Source: Aquibium microcysteis
Lineage (GTDB): Bacteria > Pseudomonadota > Alphaproteobacteria > Rhizobiales > Rhizobiaceae
DNA: 64,000 nucleotides
Reading direction: 5' to 3'
Assembly (NCBI RefSeq): GCF_014495845.1
Contig: NZ_CP061080.1
Location: 1,043,001-1,107,000, forward strand
The notes below the pieces were generated by a model. The model was not told the origin of the DNA, did no database searches, and saw nothing but the letters and a program-made list of their open reading frames with translations. Shown here one piece after another: positions 14,234-40,908 of the stretch. The number at the start of each line of letters is the position of its first letter. Position 1 is the stretch's first letter. The translations under genes were made by a program, and so were the position numbers.

Positions 14234-14282
14234 TTGGAAGTTGGAAGTTGGAAGTCGGCAGTCGGCAGTCGGCAGTCGGAAG
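14234..14282 (-). repeat. Array of seven 7-bp units (TTGGAAG/TCGGCAG)
   Basis: Three TTGGAAG, three TCGGCAG and one TCGGAAG in tandem. The TCGGCAG unit is the reverse complement of a rotation of the CCGACTG unit repeated at 14376-14466. The two arrays therefore face each other across 93 bp and could pair in RNA. Confidence 0.9.
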
Positions 14283-14375: not shown

Positions 14376-14466
14376 CCGACTGCCGACTGCCGACTGCCGA
14401 CTGCCGACTGCCGACTGCCGACTGCCGACTGCCGACTGCCGACTGCCGACTGCCGACTGCCGACTG
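14376..14466 (+). repeat. Thirteen perfect tandem copies of CCGACTG
   Basis: Exactly 91 bp made of 13 identical 7-bp units. It starts one base after the stop codon of the isomerase gene (minus strand). All reading frames through it are open, which creates false ORFs. Copy number is expected to vary by slippage. Confidence 0.97.
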
Positions 14467-14467
14467 C

Positions 14468-15529
14468 CTACTCCCCAATCCCCATCATCCTCCGCAACGC
14501 CGCCCGATCCGTCGACCCGCCCGCAAAATCGTCGAAGGCCTTTTCCGTCACGTCGATCAGATGGCTCTTGATGAAGGGCGCGCCTTCGGCGGCCCCCTGT
14601 TCGGGGTGCTTCAGGCAGCATTCCCATTCCAGCACCGCCCAGCTGTCGTAGCCATATTGCGTCAGCTTCGAGAAGATGCCGGAGAAGTCGACCTGCCCGT
14701 CGCCCAGCGAGCGGAAGCGGCCGGCGCGGTTGGTCCAGCCCGCATAGCCCGAATAGACGCCCTGCCGGCCGGTCGGGTTGAACTCGGCATCCTTGACGTG
14801 GAAGGCCGAGATGCGCTCGTGATAGATGTCGATGAAGGCGAGATAGTCGAGCTGCTGCAGCAGGAAGTGCGAGGGATCGTAGTTGATCGTGCAGCGCCGG
14901 TGCCCGCCCACCGCGTCGAGGAACATCTCGAAGGTGGTGCCGTCGAACACGTCCTCGCCGGGATGGATCTCGTAGCCGATCGAACAGCCCGCATCCTCGT
15001 AGGCGTCGAGGATGGGCCGCCAGCGCCGGCCGAGCTCGGCGAAGGCCTCCTCGATCAGCCCTGCCGGCCGCTGCGGCCAGGGGTAGAGATAGGGGAAGGC
15101 GAGCGCGCCGGTGAACGACACCGAGACGTCGAGCCCGAGATTCTTCGAGGCCCTGGCCGCGAGCAGCATCTGCTCCACGGCCCAGGCCTGCCGCGCCTTC
15201 GGATTGCCGTGCACGGATGCCGGCGCGAAGCCGTCGAACTGCGCGTCATAGGCCGGATGCACCGCCACCAGCTGGCCCTGCAGATGCGTCGACAGTTCGG
15301 TGATGGCCACGCCCGCATCGGCGCAGATGCCCTTCATCTCGTCGCAATAGGCCTGCGACCCGGCTGCCGTCTTCAGGTCGAACAGCCGCCCGTCCCAGGT
15401 CGGGATCTGCACCCCCTCGTAGCCCAGCCCCGCCGCCCACCGGGCGATCGAGGGCAGCGAATCGAACGGCGCCGCATCGCCCGCAAACTGCGCCAGAAAG
15501 ATCGCAGGCCCCTTGATCCGCGCCGCCAT
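14468..15529 (-). CDS. Sugar phosphate isomerase/epimerase (xylose isomerase-like TIM barrel)
   Basis: A 353-aa TIM-barrel enzyme of the AP-endonuclease-2/xylose-isomerase superfamily. Likely metal ligands are the glutamate in GYEIHPGED, the aspartate and histidine in NYDPSHF, the histidine in FHVKDAEF, and the glutamate in VLEWECC. ATG 15529 has GGGAGGAG five bases upstream; an in-frame extension to 15685 has no good signal. It is the first gene of a unit with the Gfo/Idh/MocA dehydrogenase, and the pair probably catabolises a sugar, inositol or a keto derivative. The 240 bp to the divergent TetR gene (15530-15769) should hold both promoters. Confidence 0.85.
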
Positions 15530-24032: not shown

Positions 24033-24268
24033 CACCTTCGTCATCCCGGAACGGCGTCCGAGCGCAGCGCAGGACGACGTATCCGGGATCCATGCCTCGC
24101 CGCCCATCCCCGCGATCCGGTCCACGACGAGGCACGTGCCGCCCGGTCGCCGCCGCGGGCGCCACATCCTGCGCCGCCCCCCCTCCGTCGTCGCTGCGCG
24201 ACGCCACCTCCGCCCCCCTCCGTCGTCGCTGCGCGACGCCACCTCCGCCCCACTGCGTGGGGTGGAGG
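24033..24268 (+). repeat. Intergenic duplication, copy A
   Basis: Begins CACCTTCGTCATCCCGGAAC and is repeated with few changes at 24466-24673, offset 433 bp for the first 135 bp. It ends in a CCCCACTGCGTGGGGTGGAGG hairpin. Copy A has an extra tandem copy of a 35-bp unit (CCCTCCGTCGTCGCTGCGCG...). The whole stretch 24012-24767 is non-coding. Confidence 0.85.
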
Positions 24269-34161: not shown

Positions 34162-34887
34162 ATGAGCGTCATCGGCTTCGCCCAGGACCACATGCTGCCG
34201 ACCCCGGACGTGACGCTCCGGCTCGTCGGCGAGCCGCATCCCTACGAGGTGCTGCACGCCGCCGGGATCGAAGCGAACTGGCAGGCGGAGCTTGCACGCA
34301 ACCCCGACCTGTTCGACGGAAGGACCGTCCTGTTCTCCCGCCTGGCGCTCCACGACGGGCGCCTCGTCGGAGACTGTCACGAGGTCCGCTACGCATCGCT
34401 GCTGCACTGGCGTCTGGCGCGCCGGACCGACATGGCTGCCCACCTCTTCGCGATGGCGCTTCCCGTCACCGCCGACGGCGCGGTGCTGACGGTCCGGATG
34501 GCGCCCTGGACGGCCAATGCCGGCCAGGTCTACTTCGCCGGCGGATCGCTGGAGCCGGCGGATTTCGTCGGTGGCGTGGCCGACGTCGATGCCAACATGC
34601 AGCGCGAAGTGCTCGAGGAAACCGGGATCGCGCTGGCCGGCACGCCGCGGGAAGCCGGCTATCGCGTCCTGCGTTCGGATCGCGGCGTCGTCGTGATCCG
34701 CCGCTACGCGCTGAAGCAGACCGCCCGCGAGATCGAGGCTCGGATCGCCGCCTTCGTGGCCGGCGAGGCGCGTCCGGAGATCGTCGAGCCGGTGCTCGTC
34801 ACGCGCACGCAGCCGCGCGCTCCCGGCCTGCTGCCCTGGGTCGGCCGGATCGTCGACTGGCACTTCGCGACGCAGGACGGCGCCTGA
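34162..34887 (+). CDS. Nudix-like hydrolase with a degenerate Nudix box
   Basis: A 241-aa protein with REVLEETGI, the second half of the Nudix box (REUXEEXGU), preceded by [12 protein letters not shown]. The upstream Gly and first Glu of the canonical box are not at the usual distance; an alanine stands where the first Glu is expected. The protein may thus be an atypical or inactive Nudix member. It lies 7 bp after the EEP-family gene and is probably cotranscribed. It converges on the next gene, with 7 bp between stops. Confidence 0.65.
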
Positions 34888-34894
34888 GCCACCG

Positions 34895-35926
34895 CTACTT
34901 CGACTGCCCGACCGCCAGACACGGATAGTAGCCCTCCTCGTCGACGGCTGCGGCCGTACACTGGTCGAAGGCGGCGAGTTCGGCTTCGTCGTCATAGAGG
35001 ATGTACGGGTCCACCAGCATCCGGCCCTTGAGGTCGAGCGAGTTGCCCAGCCGGTCGATCTGCCCCTCGACCTCCGGGCTCAGCGTCAGAAGCGCGTCGC
35101 GCAGCACGTTGCCTTCGACGAAATTGTCCGGCAGCTGGTCGAACGGCCCGTCGAAGAAGGTGTTGAGCGACGTCTCGGCGGCACGCACGCCGACCAGGAT
35201 CCAGCGCTCGCGGTAGCGGTCCTTGTACCAGGCAAAGTGGGTGCGCCGGCCGATCTTGACCTGGGTCGACGCGCTCGACTGGAAGTAGCTCTCGGTGACG
35301 ACGGACTCGTCGAGGACGTAGTGGAAGGTCTCCGTCGCCGGGTTCCACATCAGGAACATCTGCACCCCGGACTCGTCGAACACCGGGCCGATATACTGCT
35401 CGCCGTCGGCCACGATCGCTTCCGGCGGCTTCACGCCGCGCAGGTCGTTGAGGCGGAAGAGGACCATACGCCCCTTCGCGGTGATCGCATAGTCGAGTTC
35501 ACCCCTCTTCTCGACCTTCACCCCGAACTGCTCGGTGTAGGCCCGGTGCTCGGAGATCTCCTGCTCGACGAAGGGATTGTTCTCCGAGAAATAGGCGAAA
35601 TGCACGATCCCCTGGTCGCGGTCGGCGATGTCGAGGCGGAAGTTGCCGGCATAGGGCACGCCGCCATGGACGAACTTGAAGTAGTAGTAGTTCTCCGTCG
35701 GATAGACGGTCACCGCGTCGCCGAGGCTGGAGAAGACGTAGTCGAAGACCTCGTCGATGGAGCGGATGTCGAATTCCGGAGCGCGCAGCACCTCCTCGAC
35801 ATAGGCCTCGTTGGTCTTGATCGTGTTCTGGGCGGCGGCCAGGCCGGTGGCGGACCCGGCGAGAAGGCTGCCGGTCAGGAGCGCCACGGGCGCGAGCGAC
35901 AGGTGAAAAGCACAGCGAAAGCCCAT
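34895..35926 (-). CDS. Exported protein of unknown function, 343 aa
   Basis: Not recognised. It has a signal peptide (MGFRCAFHLSLAPVALLTGS to about residue 33, then QNTIKTNE) and no further membrane span. The mature part is acidic and aromatic-rich (ENYYYFKFVHGGVPYAGNFR, NNPFVEQEISEHRAY, TFFDGPFDQLPDN), with two late cysteines (AFDQCTA, YPCLAVG) that may form a disulfide. GGAGA precedes ATG 35926. It lies 76 bp downstream of the SHxKxGS repeat protein on the same strand, so the two exported proteins may act together. Confidence 0.7.
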   Translation of the reverse strand: MGFRCAFHLSLAPVALLTGSLLAGSATGLAAAQNTIKTNEAYVEEVLRAPEFDIRSIDEVFDYVFSSLGDAVTVYPTENYYYFKFVHGGVPYAGNFRLDIADRDQGIVHFAYFSENNPFVEQEISEHRAYTEQFGVKVEKRGELDYAITAKGRMVLFRLNDLRGVKPPEAIVADGEQYIGPVFDESGVQMFLMWNPATETFHYVLDESVVTESYFQSSASTQVKIGRRTHFAWYKDRYRERWILVGVRAAETSLNTFFDGPFDQLPDNFVEGNVLRDALLTLSPEVEGQIDRLGNSLDLKGRMLVDPYILYDDEAELAAFDQCTAAAVDEEGYYPCLAVGQSK

Positions 35927-36002
35927 TGGCTGTCTCCGGAGAGGCTGGGAACGGCGTGGCGGACGCGGGCGGGACGCAGGGTCCCGCCCGTCATGGCGGA
36001 CG

Positions 36003-39000
36003 TCACTGGATCTGCGGGATGATCGGCAGAACCGGCTGGATTTGGATCGACCCCGCCTTCTGGTGCGACTCCTCCTTGCCGTGCCGGCTGCGCGACCCTT
36101 CCTTCTGGTGCGACTGTTCCTTCGTATGCACGCTGCCCGATCCCTCCTTCTGGTGGGATTCACGCTTGCTGTGACCGTCCGAACCCTGCTTCTGGTGGGA
36201 CTCCCGCTTGGAGTGGTCGTTGCCCGAGCCGTCCTTCTGGTGGGACTGGCGCTTGTCGTGAATCACCGAACCCTGCTTCAGGTGGGACTGCACCTTGTTG
36301 TGCGGCGAACCGGTCTTCAGATGCGACTCGCTCTTGGTATGGACGTCCGAGCCCTGCTTGCGGTGGGACTCGTTCTTGGTGTGGATGTCCGAGCCCTGCT
36401 TGCGATGGGACTCGTTCTTGGTGTGGACGTCGGAGCCCTGTTTGCGGTGGGACTCGTTCTTGGTGTGGATGTCCGAGCCCTGCTTCAGGTGGGACTGGAG
36501 CTTGTTGTGCGGCGAACCGTCCTTCAGGTGCGAGACGGTCTTCTCGTGGATGAACGAGCCGGCCTTCTTGTGCGACTGGACCTTGTTGTGCGGCGAACCG
36601 TCCTTCAGGTGCGAGACGGTCTTCTCGTGGATGAACGAGCCGGCCTTCTTGTGCGACTGGACCTTGTTGTGCGGCGAGCCGTCCTTCAGGTGCGAGACGG
36701 TCTTCTCGTGGATGAACGAGCCGGCCTTCTTGTGCGACTGGACCTTGTTGTGCGGCGAGCCGTCCTTCAGATGCGAGACGTTCTTTTCGTGGATGGTCGA
36801 GCCGAACTTCTGGTGCGACTGGATCTTGTTGTGCGGCGAATCGTACTTCTGATGCGACTGGACCTTGTTGTGCGGTGATCCGACCTTCAGGTGCGACTGG
36901 ACCTTGTTGTGCGGCGAGCCGACCTTGAGGTGGGACTGCACCTTGTCGTGCGGCGAACCGACCTTGAGGTGCGACTGGACCTTGTTGTGGGGAGAGCCGA
37001 TCTTGAGATGCGACTGCACCTTGTTGTGCGGCGAGCCGATCTTGAGATGCGAGTTCCACTTGGAGTGCACCGGCTGCGGGCGGTCGGTCGTCACGTCGTG
37101 GCAGTCCTCGTCGTTGGAGGCGTCGAGATCGCCCGCGATGCCGACGAGGCCCGGGTAGAGCAGCGCAATCGTGCTTTCGTCGATCTCGCCGGTGGCCGGC
37201 AGACCGTTGTCGGCCTGGAACCGCGCCAGCGCATCGCGGGAGCGCGGTCCGAACACGCCGTCGACCGTACCGAGATCATAGCCGAGCAACGTCAGAGCCG
37301 ACTGGATCGCCAGCATGTCGATCGCACCGGTCTCGTCGTAGAGCCACTGGACGGCGATGCAGTTGCTCATCACGTCCGATGGATAGCGCGACGGGATGTC
37401 GATGCTGAGCGTGAAGGAAGACGTCTGGCCGACCCCGAGCGACAGCGCCGGGTTGAGGCACTGGATGCCGGTCCCGAGATCGTAGCAGGACCAGTCGCCG
37501 CCGCTGACGCCCGACAGCGGCGCCTGGTTCGGCTGCATGAAGTCCCAGAGATAGACCGGACCGGAGAAGGCGCCCGGACCGCGGTTGGTGAGCGTGATGG
37601 TGAAGTCGCAACGCGTGCCGCCGAGGCACTGCAGCGGCCCCGACTTGTCGATGTCGAGGTCATAGCCCTGCGGCTGCGGCAGGCCCGGGGGCGGCGTGGT
37701 CCCGCCGCCGCCGCGCACCACCTCGACGTCGCCGATCTTCGTCGAGTCGTGCTTGAGGGCCTGGAGCCGGACCGGGGCGCCGGCCGCCGTCACGTTGGTA
37801 TCGAGATCGACGAGATAGGAGGCGAGCGGACCGTTGGCGGGGTAGGGGTCCCCATTGGCCGGATAAGGACCCGTCGCGCCGGCGGGCAGGATTTCGCTGG
37901 TCTCGGCGATACGCGTGCCCTGCAGGCCGTGCACCTCGTCCTTGTTCGTGCGCTGGCCCGTCGACGGGTCGACGCAGGCGCCCGTGGGCGAGCAGAGGAA
38001 GTCGCCGCTCATCCAGGCGGTGTCGTAGGGACGGTTCGGGTCGATCGCGCCCGCGGCATCGTAGCCGTGGCCGAAGTCGACGCCGCCCGCCGCCCCCGCC
38101 CGCAGCCACGGCGCGCCGACGCTGCGGCGGTCGTCGAAGCCGACGTCGTAGCGGCCCTGCGGCGCCCATGTGCCGTTCTGGGCATGCACGTAACGCAGCA
38201 CGCGCGCTGCGTTCGGCGCGGCGAAGGGCTGCGGCTTGTCGAGACCGAGATTGCGCAGGCCGCCGCGCTCGGCCACCAGCATCTCGCCCTGCGGCGAGAT
38301 CGCGATGTCGGGCACGACGCGCGGTCCTTCGGAGGCGGTGCCGAAATCAGGCAGGATGAACTCGCGCCGGACGTCGGCGGCGTCGAAGCCGCCATTGGCG
38401 TCGAGGCCGACGGACCAGACGGCGTTCTTCGCGTCCTCGCCGGCCGCCGCCCAGTCGGCTGCGCCGAGCCCGTCGCCGCCGGAGACGGCATAGAACAGAC
38501 GGGTCTCGCCATTGACCGGATCGGTGTGCACGGCCAGGCCCCAGACGCGGCGGCGGAAGTCGGCGACGTTCCAGCACGAAGGCGTCAGCGAGAAGTCGGC
38601 GGGCGCGCCCGCGCCGTCGGCGCAATCGAACAGCGCGGCCGTGCTGGCGGGATCGAAGGCGATTGCGGCGAGTGTCTTGTTGGTGCCGCTCGCCACGTCG
38701 AGGAACGAGGTCCGGCCCTGCGTGCCGTGGTCGAAGCGATCGATGTGGGTGCCGTCGAGTGCCACCCGGTGGATCATGCCCGTCTCGAGATCCGAAACGA
38801 AGAGCTGCCCGACGGCGCGGTCGAAAGCGACGTTGCCGAGCGCCGCACCGCTGTTCTCGCGGCCGTCGAGATCGATGATGGTGAAGAGCTGCGGCGCGTA
38901 GCCATTGTCGGGGCTGAGCACGTAGATCGCGCCGGACCCGCCTTCGCCGAACTGACCCGGCAGCCAGTCGCTGCCGTCCTCGAAGCGGTGGAGGCCGAAG

Positions 39001-39383
39001 GCCGAGGTTGCTGCGAGGTAGATCGAGGGTTCCGCGTCGTCCGAGATGGCGATGCCGAACACCTGGCCGATTTCGGCCGCGGTAACCGCGAGATGCTGGG
39101 GCTCGTTCGCCCAGTGGCGGCCGTCGGCCGTGAAGCCGGGGCTGCGGATGTCGATGGCGCTGGCCACCACGCCGTCCTCGTCGATGAGCGTCAGCCGGGA
39201 GCCGTCGCCGAGCGTGATCTCGGTGGTTCCGGAGAAGCGGGTGGCGAAGGCTTCGCCGGCCGCCGGTGCCTCCTGGGCGAAGGCGGGCGCCACGAGCGCC
39301 GAGGATGCGAGAAGCAGCGCCGAGATCAGTGCCGTCCGCCTGCGGTCACGCCGGGACGGGGCGTTCGAAACGGTGGTAGCCAT
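36003..39383 (-). CDS. Large exported protein: propeller-like domain, peptidoglycan-binding domain, SHxKxGS repeats
   Basis: A 1126-aa protein whose role is unknown. Signal peptide at residues 1-36 (cleavage after APAFA). Residues about 40-560 look like a beta-propeller with repeated strand motifs (GNVAFDRAVGQLFVSDLETG, PDIAISPQGEMLVAERGG). Residues about 571-671 resemble a DUF11-like immunoglobulin domain (FTITLTNRGPGAFSG). A peptidoglycan-binding-1 domain follows at about 688-747 (LGYDLGTVDGVFGPRSRDAL). Residues 778-1112 are 25 tandem 13-15-residue units with consensus SH-x-K-x-GS-x(1-3)-H-x-K. The end is IQIQPVLPIIPQIQ. GAGGAGG precedes ATG 39383. It is probably cell-wall or outer-surface associated. 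Confidence 0.8.
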   Translation of the reverse strand: MATTVSNAPSRRDRRRTALISALLLASSALVAPAFAQEAPAAGEAFATRFSGTTEITLGDGSRLTLIDEDGVVASAIDIRSPGFTADGRHWANEPQHLAVTAAEIGQVFGIAISDDAEPSIYLAATSAFGLHRFEDGSDWLPGQFGEGGSGAIYVLSPDNGYAPQLFTIIDLDGRENSGAALGNVAFDRAVGQLFVSDLETGMIHRVALDGTHIDRFDHGTQGRTSFLDVASGTNKTLAAIAFDPASTAALFDCADGAGAPADFSLTPSCWNVADFRRRVWGLAVHTDPVNGETRLFYAVSGGDGLGAADWAAAGEDAKNAVWSVGLDANGGFDAADVRREFILPDFGTASEGPRVVPDIAISPQGEMLVAERGGLRNLGLDKPQPFAAPNAARVLRYVHAQNGTWAPQGRYDVGFDDRRSVGAPWLRAGAAGGVDFGHGYDAAGAIDPNRPYDTAWMSGDFLCSPTGACVDPSTGQRTNKDEVHGLQGTRIAETSEILPAGATGPYPANGDPYPANGPLASYLVDLDTNVTAAGAPVRLQALKHDSTKIGDVEVVRGGGGTTPPPGLPQPQGYDLDIDKSGPLQCLGGTRCDFTITLTNRGPGAFSGPVYLWDFMQPNQAPLSGVSGGDWSCYDLGTGIQCLNPALSLGVGQTSSFTLSIDIPSRYPSDVMSNCIAVQWLYDETGAIDMLAIQSALTLLGYDLGTVDGVFGPRSRDALARFQADNGLPATGEIDESTIALLYPGLVGIAGDLDASNDEDCHDVTTDRPQPVHSKWNSHLKIGSPHNKVQSHLKIGSPHNKVQSHLKVGSPHDKVQSHLKVGSPHNKVQSHLKVGSPHNKVQSHQKYDSPHNKIQSHQKFGSTIHEKNVSHLKDGSPHNKVQSHKKAGSFIHEKTVSHLKDGSPHNKVQSHKKAGSFIHEKTVSHLKDGSPHNKVQSHKKAGSFIHEKTVSHLKDGSPHNKLQSHLKQGSDIHTKNESHRKQGSDVHTKNESHRKQGSDIHTKNESHRKQGSDVHTKSESHLKTGSPHNKVQSHLKQGSVIHDKRQSHQKDGSGNDHSKRESHQKQGSDGHSKRESHQKEGSGSVHTKEQSHQKEGSRSRHGKEESHQKAGSIQIQPVLPIIPQIQ
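36048..37052 (-). repeat. 25 tandem SHxKxGS coding repeats
   Basis: About 1 kb of tandem 39-45-bp units within the exported protein: eleven of 13, ten of 14 and three of 15 residues, plus a final partial unit. Subtypes are SHLKxGSPHNKVQ, SHKKAGSFIHEKTV, SHRKQGSDxHTKNE and SHQKxGSxxHxKxE. A 27-residue (81-bp) double unit is repeated almost identically three times at about 36530-36780, a sign of recent duplication. Confidence 0.95.
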
Positions 39384-39624
39384 GCCTGTTTCCTCCTCTG
39401 GGCGCCGCGGAGCGGGCGCCACCTTGGATGGCGGCGATTGGTGTCACGCGCCGTCAACCGGTTCCATGAAGCTTTTCACATCTCCGTGAAGCGCGACACT
39501 ATCCGGGGATTGTTTCGGCAGCGCGGAAGATGTTTGCAGGCTCACAATCGGCCGCGCCACCTGAACGGTGGCTGAACGATGGATTTCCGGTGGCTGGGGA
39601 ATGGCGAACGCGCGGCGGGGCACC

Positions 39625-40908
39625 TCACCCCGCTGGTCGGTGGCGCCTGTCGACGTCGGAGGGGCGACCGGCCAGCGCCAGCCGCGTCTTCTGCCGGGTG
39701 CGCTCGGCCACGACCTTGCCGCGCGCCACGACGCACAGCCTTTCGGCGCGCAGCCGAACGGCCTCGGTCGGGTTGCCGGCGTCGAGCACCATGAGGCTCG
39801 CCCGCTTGCCGACGGCCAGACCGTAGTGGTCGAGACCCATGATGGCGGCGCTGTCGACCGTCACCATGTCGAAGCATTTGCGCATCTCCGCCGGATGCGA
39901 CATCTGCGCCACATGCAGGCCCATGAAGGCGACGTCCAGCATGTCGGCGGTGCCGAGCGAATACCAGGGGTCGAGCACGCAGTCCTGGCCGAAGCCGACG
40001 CGAATGCCCAACGCCAGCATCTCCTTCACCCGGGTCATGCCGCGGCGCTTGGGGAACGTGTCGTGGCGGCCCTGCAGCATGATGTTGATCAGCGGATTGG
40101 GGATCGCCGACACCTCGGCCTCCGCGATCAGCGGCAGCAGCTTGGAGACGTAGTAGTTGTCCATCGAGTGCATGGAGGTGAGGTGCGAGCCGGCGACGCG
40201 GCCCTGCAGGCCGAGCCGCTGCGTCTCGTAGGCAAGCTGCTCGATGTGGCGCGACTGCGGGTCGTCGGTCTCGTCGCAATGCATGTCGACCATCAGTCCG
40301 CGCTCGGCGGCGATCTCGCAAAGGTCGGTGACGGAGCGGCGGCCGTCGGCCATGGTGCGTTCGAAATGCGGGATGCCGCCGACCACGTCGACGCCCATGT
40401 CGAGTGCGCGGACGGTGTTGCGGCGCGCCGAGGGCGAGCGGTAGAGCCCGTCCTGCGGGAACGCGACGAGCTGGAGATCGATATAGGGCGCGATCTCGCG
40501 CTTGACCTCGAGCAGCGCCTCGACCGCCAGCAGCCGGTCGTCGCAGACGTCGACATGGGTGCGGATGGCGAGCAGGCCCATCGAGACCGCCCAGTCGCAA
40601 TAGGCCAGCGCGCGGCTCTTCACCGCCTCGTGCGTCAGCAGCGGCTTCAGCTCGCCCCACAGCGCGATGCCTTCCAGCAGCGTGCCGGACGCGTTGATGC
40701 GCGGGATGCCGTAGGACAGCGTCGCGTCCATGTGGAAATGCGGGTCGACGAAGGGCGGCGCGACGAGATTCCCGGTCGCGTCGATCACACGTCCTGCGTC
40801 CGAACCGAGCGACGGCGCGATGGCGGCGATGGTCTCGCCGGTGATGCCGATGTCGGCCACGGAACCGTCGGGCAGGGTGCCGCCCTTGATGAGGAGGTCG
40901 AAGGTCAT
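39625..40908 (-). CDS. codA: Cytosine deaminase / CodA-like amidohydrolase
   Basis: A 427-aa metal-dependent amidohydrolase that deaminates cytosine or a related base (isoguanine, creatinine-type substrates are possible). The metal site is HFHMDATL, then HCDETDDPQSR, AGSHLTSMHSMDN, and the catalytic aspartate in GQDCVLDPWYSLGTADML. This last segment is very close to the DPWYPLGTANML region of E. coli CodA. ATG 40908 is preferred over TTG 40914. It follows the BMP-type ABC transporter genes on the same strand, 163 bp away across a palindromic repeat, so it probably processes the imported nucleobase. Confidence 0.85.
   Translation of the reverse strand: MTFDLLIKGGTLPDGSVADIGITGETIAAIAPSLGSDAGRVIDATGNLVAPPFVDPHFHMDATLSYGIPRINASGTLLEGIALWGELKPLLTHEAVKSRALAYCDWAVSMGLLAIRTHVDVCDDRLLAVEALLEVKREIAPYIDLQLVAFPQDGLYRSPSARRNTVRALDMGVDVVGGIPHFERTMADGRRSVTDLCEIAAERGLMVDMHCDETDDPQSRHIEQLAYETQRLGLQGRVAGSHLTSMHSMDNYYVSKLLPLIAEAEVSAIPNPLINIMLQGRHDTFPKRRGMTRVKEMLALGIRVGFGQDCVLDPWYSLGTADMLDVAFMGLHVAQMSHPAEMRKCFDMVTVDSAAIMGLDHYGLAVGKRASLMVLDAGNPTEAVRLRAERLCVVARGKVVAERTRQKTRLALAGRPSDVDRRHRPAG

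Follow-up and report, generated by a model that had tools for sequence, protein, structure and literature searches.

An H-x4-S motif array on an exported propeller protein of Aquibium microcysteis and its linkage to an uncharacterised neighbouring gene

Introduction

The disordered tails of exported bacterial proteins have mostly been left unexplained, because no alignment of them is possible. The repeats of Lysostaphin_N (PF25533) are 13 residues long, those of RTX proteins are GGxGxDxUx nonapeptides, and the streptococcal histidine-triad (Pht) proteins carry HxxHxH motifs. Fibrillar adhesins with CLIPPER domains (DUF11, PF01345) present a long stalk of domains in tandem; in the excerpts of the description that were consulted (PMC12617251), the CLIPPER domain of PDB entry 9IFR contains K715, D748 and N806, a spacing of +33/+91.

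The two genes analysed here lie in a window of 64,000 nucleotides of the A. microcysteis genome (contig NZ_CP061080.1, positions 1,043,001 to 1,107,000; all coordinates below are positions within this window). Their features, all on the minus strand, are as follows:

36003..39383, minus strand: gene A, an exported protein of 1126 aa (propeller, CLIPPER/DUF11 domain with inserted PG_binding_1, H-x-K-x-x-S tail)
39273..39383, minus strand: predicted signal peptide, residues 1-37, ending in VAPAFAQ (translation read by eye; pLDDT low at residues 10-35)
37719..39266, minus strand: six-bladed beta-propeller with large insertions, residues 40-555
37341..37667, minus strand: DUF11/CLIPPER-like Ig domain, first part, residues 573-681 (Foldseek, 9ifr)
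37158..37316, minus strand: PG_binding_1 (PF01471), residues 690-742, inserted ahead of the last CLIPPER strand (Pfam; strand order in the model)
37074..37136, minus strand: last CLIPPER strand (NDEDCHDVTT), residues 750-770 (structure model)
36048..37067, minus strand: tail array of 50 H-x-K-x-x-S motifs (25 SHxKx[G/D]S units), residues 773-1112, with no predicted fold
36006..36047, minus strand: short hydrophobic C-terminus, IQIQPVLPIIPQIQ, residues 1113-1126; the ends of several relatives are loosely alike
34895..35926, minus strand: gene B, 343 aa, with a signal-like N-terminus, of an uncharacterised family, 76 nt past the gene A stop codon

Like the CLIPPER adhesins, as far as the excerpts of PMC12617251 describe them, gene A is exported and has a CLIPPER Ig fold, with Lys, Asp and Asn as candidate isopeptide residues at a similar spacing. 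It differs from them in having one CLIPPER domain instead of a tandem stalk, in the PG_binding_1 domain inserted in that domain, and in its probably disordered H-x4-S tail, which is not mentioned in those excerpts. The fold of its propeller is shared with six-bladed propellers of the YWTD, NHL and DFPase types (PDB 1npe, LRP6, Pizza6, 3li5), though at 9-15% identity among the matches listed and with large insertions in gene A. The PG_binding_1 domain, well above the cut-off, is shared with other envelope proteins, from which gene A is distinguished by the location of this domain inside CLIPPER and by having no Pfam hydrolase domain. A periodicity of 13 residues is common to the tail and Lysostaphin_N, but the tail scored 23.8 bits against that family's cut-off of 60. 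RTX and Pht proteins likewise repeat metal-relevant residues in exported proteins; neither GGxGxD nor HxxHxH occurs in the gene A protein (0 copies of each), and assignment to either group was rejected.

Results

Domain organization of gene A

The carrier part of gene A consists of known domains. PF01471 scored 54.7 bits in Pfam (gathering score 23), the propeller had the six-bladed fold of the YWTD/NHL type, and the CLIPPER Ig-like (CnaA-like) fold was detected by Foldseek (9ifr, E 3.9e-6, probability 1.00, TMt 0.68, rmsd 2.7). DUF11 was not reported by Pfam for gene A itself (P0001); PF01345 was precomputed on many of its wider relatives, and DUF11 copies without the PG-binding insert were read in a Ciceribacter protein. 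K580, D614 and N674 are candidate isopeptide residues, proposed from sequence: a pattern search found K/D/N at +34/+94 in 19 of the 20 proteins P0001-P0020, close to the spacing given for 9IFR in the excerpts of PMC12617251. The first-pass annotation had described an export signal, a propeller, an Ig/DUF11 domain, a peptidoglycan-binding domain and a regular His/Lys array, and all of these were found. A location at the surface or in the periplasm is plausible from the predicted signal peptide and PG_binding_1.

In several tails of the family the last few residues are hydrophobic and rich in Pro (IQIQPVLPIIPQIQ, EKPPAFLPKL, INPLLLAPKQ); such ends may act as a terminal signal. Elsewhere in the window, heptamer tandem repeats were present at 14236-14282 and 14376-14472 (GGAAGTC/GGCAGTC type, then about 14 CCGACTG copies at 98%); these are near-inverted and are found in the region where one minus-strand frame starts and the following one ends. 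A 35-base repeat (2.3 copies at 95%) was located in a G+C-rich stretch at 24178-24258.

The tail array and its conserved rule

The array (residues 773-1112) contained 50 His, all of them with Lys at +2 and Ser at +5 (50/50); shuffled tails contained a mean of 6.7 H-x4-S. The 25 SHxKx[G/D]S units reported earlier are real, but they are pairs of a smaller motif, H-x-K-x-x-S, and it is this motif, in 50 copies, that is the true repeat unit. Over the 25 units, H, K and S were invariant, G was changed once and the x positions varied, and the H, K, S and G codons occurred in 2-4 synonymous forms each.

The homolog search gave 216 proteins at E <= 1e-3 among 7993 candidates scored, and tails were compared in 121 proteins (the best 120 of the 216 homologs, plus P0001). 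By a score which itself uses H-x4-S, these were classified into 73 H-x4-S tails, 45 Cys-rich tails and 3 others. Ser was found at +5 for 2701 of the 3055 His in the H-x4-S class, a figure raised by the H-x4-S-based selection. A choice of His-rich tails blind to Ser (at least 4% His and at least 8 His) retained 76 of the 121 listed tails: the top enriched residue-offset pair was Ser at +5 in 63 of them and K or R at +2 in 11, and two were odd (P0066 and P0074). Among the 634 His of the remaining 45 tails, 23 had Ser at +5. The 76 His-rich tails were dominated at +2 by R (29 tails), K (28) or P (17), and outside the H-x4-S rule the tail drifts freely among relatives. A protein search with the tail alone (7677 candidates of 0.55-1.75 times the query length) gave no match at E <= 1e-3, a result in which composition bias may hide matches.

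Two other forms were observed on the same propeller. One has a tail of Cys-rich repeats (CxGGxV...CxCPKG...NAFRC and CPRGWxQVxRxRAKxL; P0022-P0055 and others); in the other (L013-L022), the repeat tail is replaced by a short domain that contains a CC motif resembling GGYFPCCKV.

The window array is rich in positive residues (53 K and 8 R vs. 14 D and 15 E), and tails were positive at 25 of the 27 genome loci measured. Net charge per 100 residues ranged from -4.4 (P0021) to +22.9 in the His-rich tails of the family (+1.3 in P0081), and from -3.0 (L139) to +29.1 at the 27 loci (-1.9 in L138). Tail charge varies across the family while H-x4-S persists; the “cationic” character proposed in the first-pass annotation is not the conserved property, in view of these two ranges and of the R, K or P at +2. 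The beta-solenoid suggested there was also left unsupported, because AlphaFold found no fold in the tail: the model (16 aligned sequences) had a pLDDT of 42.9, no secondary structure and no strands, and such low model confidence suggests disorder.

Linkage of gene B to the tail

Gene B was not part of the first-pass annotation. Its linkage to the tail was first seen in 22 loci clustered by gene content (at 4 of the 22, gene A was not picked up by the filter for genes) and was checked by tblastn. The set used to measure it comprised 82 propeller loci: the window, L003 and 80 from genomes of the order, the choice of the first 20 of these 80 leaning towards H-x4-S tails. Ten loci (2 H-x4-S and 8 others) were dropped for a gene off the contig end or a flank shorter than 1.3 kb, leaving 72. 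Gene B was directly downstream in 26 of the 27 usable loci with H-x4-S tails vs. none of the 45 without (Fisher p 1e-18, a value that ignores kinship), and the spacing between the two genes went from an overlap of 58 nt to 308 nt apart. One of the loci scored as non-H-x4-S (L071) had an empty tail, and a Cys-rich tail at that place when read as L051. In the propeller tree (82 rows), 6 changes had to be assumed for tail type and 6 for gene B. On well-supported branches, B went with the tail in a mean of 2.9 of 3 independent pairs, never against it; the sign test cannot reach significance because the independent pairs are too few (3 on supported branches, 5 on all branches). The promoter and terminator scan gave nothing above chance, and no minus-strand terminator-like site was found in 34600-39800.

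Judged by sequence comparison, gene B goes with the tail and not with the propeller, because of one exceptional locus, two loci without a propeller, one isolated propeller and the partial correlations. L059, the sole exception of the 27, had an H-x4-S gene first, then B, then a 224-aa frame and finally the propeller gene. The first of these is an 835-aa frame that starts in a signal-like way, has 52 H-x4-S motifs and was followed directly by B. Read by eye, it has a CLIPPER-like stretch into which a PG-binding-like one is inserted, and a comparison with 11 propeller queries detected no propeller in it (best blastp E 0.54). In L117 and L118, from one genus, B lay 64 nt after a propeller-free frame of 219-234 residues that has a signal-like start and carries an H-x4-S array. 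The propeller of L065 belongs to a clade whose 46 other rows lacked such tails, yet L065 had both B and an H-x4-S tail; its nearest locus was L128, both by tail composition and by B identity, and its B grouped with those of L117 and L118 in the B tree (support 88, long branch). Across 26 loci, the flanking residues of the tail correlated more strongly with B distance after control for propeller distance (partial r 0.36, p 0.0005) than with propeller distance after control for B (0.19, p 0.047).

Three further loci are recorded as side observations. In L115 (8875-9760, minus strand), B was preceded by a frame at the contig edge with an H-x4-S array (Ser at +5 for 16/16 His), the carrier part being off the contig. 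A distant B in L120 followed a 107-residue frame with Ser at +5 for 3/3 His, a weaker hint. In L184 (G773, about 367-1294), a 309-residue frame with SHQPGSLRHRRAS repeats, in which Ser is at +4 and not +5, was followed by a distant homolog of B (32%).

Characteristics of gene B

The gene B protein had no significant match in Pfam, NCBIfam or PDB, and its profile gave none against PDB. Pfam searches on 32 members reported 8 families, each in a single member (the best was NlpE_C at E 0.0019), and the PHROGs search gave one match, at E 0.065. The family is large (of 7661 candidates, 2119 were homologs at E <= 1e-3), and in the alignment of 32 members the segment DGPFDQLPDNF and two Cys were invariant. 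The protein was acidic at the 27 loci (pI 4.1-6.2). Electrostatic pairing between the two proteins was dropped because B charge follows the propeller (Spearman 0.52) and not the tail (0.00); the latter result also counts against a reading of the tail by B.

Distribution

The propeller domain was present in 114 of the 397 genomes of the order and in 59 of 142 genera (E <= 1e-10), and B in 44 of the 397 genomes. Outside the order B was rare: it occurred in 1 of the 384 other genomes drawn from the class and in none of the 397 others drawn from the phylum, both draws including some genomes of the order. No B was found on plasmids; the one plasmid propeller, from Ciceribacter thiooxidans, had a Cys-type tail, with no B in the stretch examined.

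For some B genes no tail partner is apparent, which counts against the tail-B pairing. In 11 B loci from genomes without a propeller match (L104-L114), scanning of the flanks yielded no H-x4-S gene; among the frames listed for L119, L122 and L123 there was no clear H-x4-S partner, and the sole candidate in L121 was an antisense Arg/Tyr-rich frame. A search for unlinked H-x4-S tails in the 11 genomes with B and without A gave a best E of 0.2, with only 2 of 5 positive controls found (G187 and G502 were found, G170 and G481 were missed, and G163 was found only elsewhere, at E 0.06).

Discussion

A tail co-inherited with the neighbouring gene points to a two-protein system outside the cell membrane. 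Gene A would be an envelope protein held close to the cell wall by its PG_binding_1 domain, with the propeller and CLIPPER domains as carrier, and its C-terminal tail would be an unfolded array of a short linear motif, H-x-[K/R/P]-x-x-S, in 50 copies here. We infer that the two proteins meet outside the cytoplasm, where the putatively exported gene B protein would recognise this motif and the array would serve as a multivalent platform on which many B molecules dock, or which they modify. We regard this reading, a linear-motif array read by B in which the pair acts as a wall docking or modification platform, as somewhat probable. Cohesin-dockerin and multi-core peptide systems, which combine repeated sites with a dedicated partner, may serve as a working analogy. 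As to the form of the recognition, binding is the first choice, tentatively held, and covalent modification the second, with a distinctly lower probability. A wider proposal, which we consider doubtful, is that the motif and B form an extracytoplasmic modification or assembly module of Hyphomicrobiales that is mobile between carriers, with B founding a new enzyme or reader family; B would then act on each motif, and the carriers would be propeller, CLIPPER-only and stand-alone exported proteins.

The strongest of the rival explanations is a metal or proton sponge, in which the His are ligands of Zn, Cu or Ni or take up protons around neutral pH, Ser assists as a further ligand, and B carries or senses that metal. 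The fixed spacing of all 50 His in the array agrees with it, as does the fact that His with Ser is the constant part across tail types, but HxxHxH and HH are both absent from the protein and the fixed Ser at +5 is left unexplained. We consider it unlikely as the full explanation, while metal binding by the array His is possible, alone or within recognition by B. Lower odds are given to explanations by charge alone, a solenoid or a simple spacer. A Lys/Arg-rich tail could act as a glue for extracellular DNA, LPS or acidic polysaccharide, in keeping with the Lys and Arg excess of the window array and the predominance of positive tails; yet the four tails named above with negative or low charge (P0021, P0081, L139 and L138) keep H-x4-S, and for charge alone His and Ser would be superfluous, making such a glue improbable. 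The least probable rival is a drifting low-complexity stalk grown by DNA slippage with no motif-specific role, which fits the variable copy number and the strong DNA repeats at the array but not the varied synonymous codons behind fixed amino acids, the Ser +5 rule common to 63 of the 76 His-rich tails or the link to B.

Returning to the motif array and its putative reader, the pair of H-x4-S array and B appears to be new: nothing matching was found in the libraries searched, and at the level of titles and abstract openings the open-access records listed gave no paper on the SHxKxGS repeat, the B motif or the gene A architecture, most subscription papers lying outside this search. Confidence in this novelty is moderate, because function is deduced from inheritance and not from experiment.

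One rule, a His with a Ser five residues on, outlasts other change in the tail and is a near-perfect predictor of the neighbouring gene in the loci examined. An unreadable tail may in this way be turned into a testable two-protein system, and the large uncharacterised B family gains a first functional lead, with gene B itself now looking like the main clue to function.
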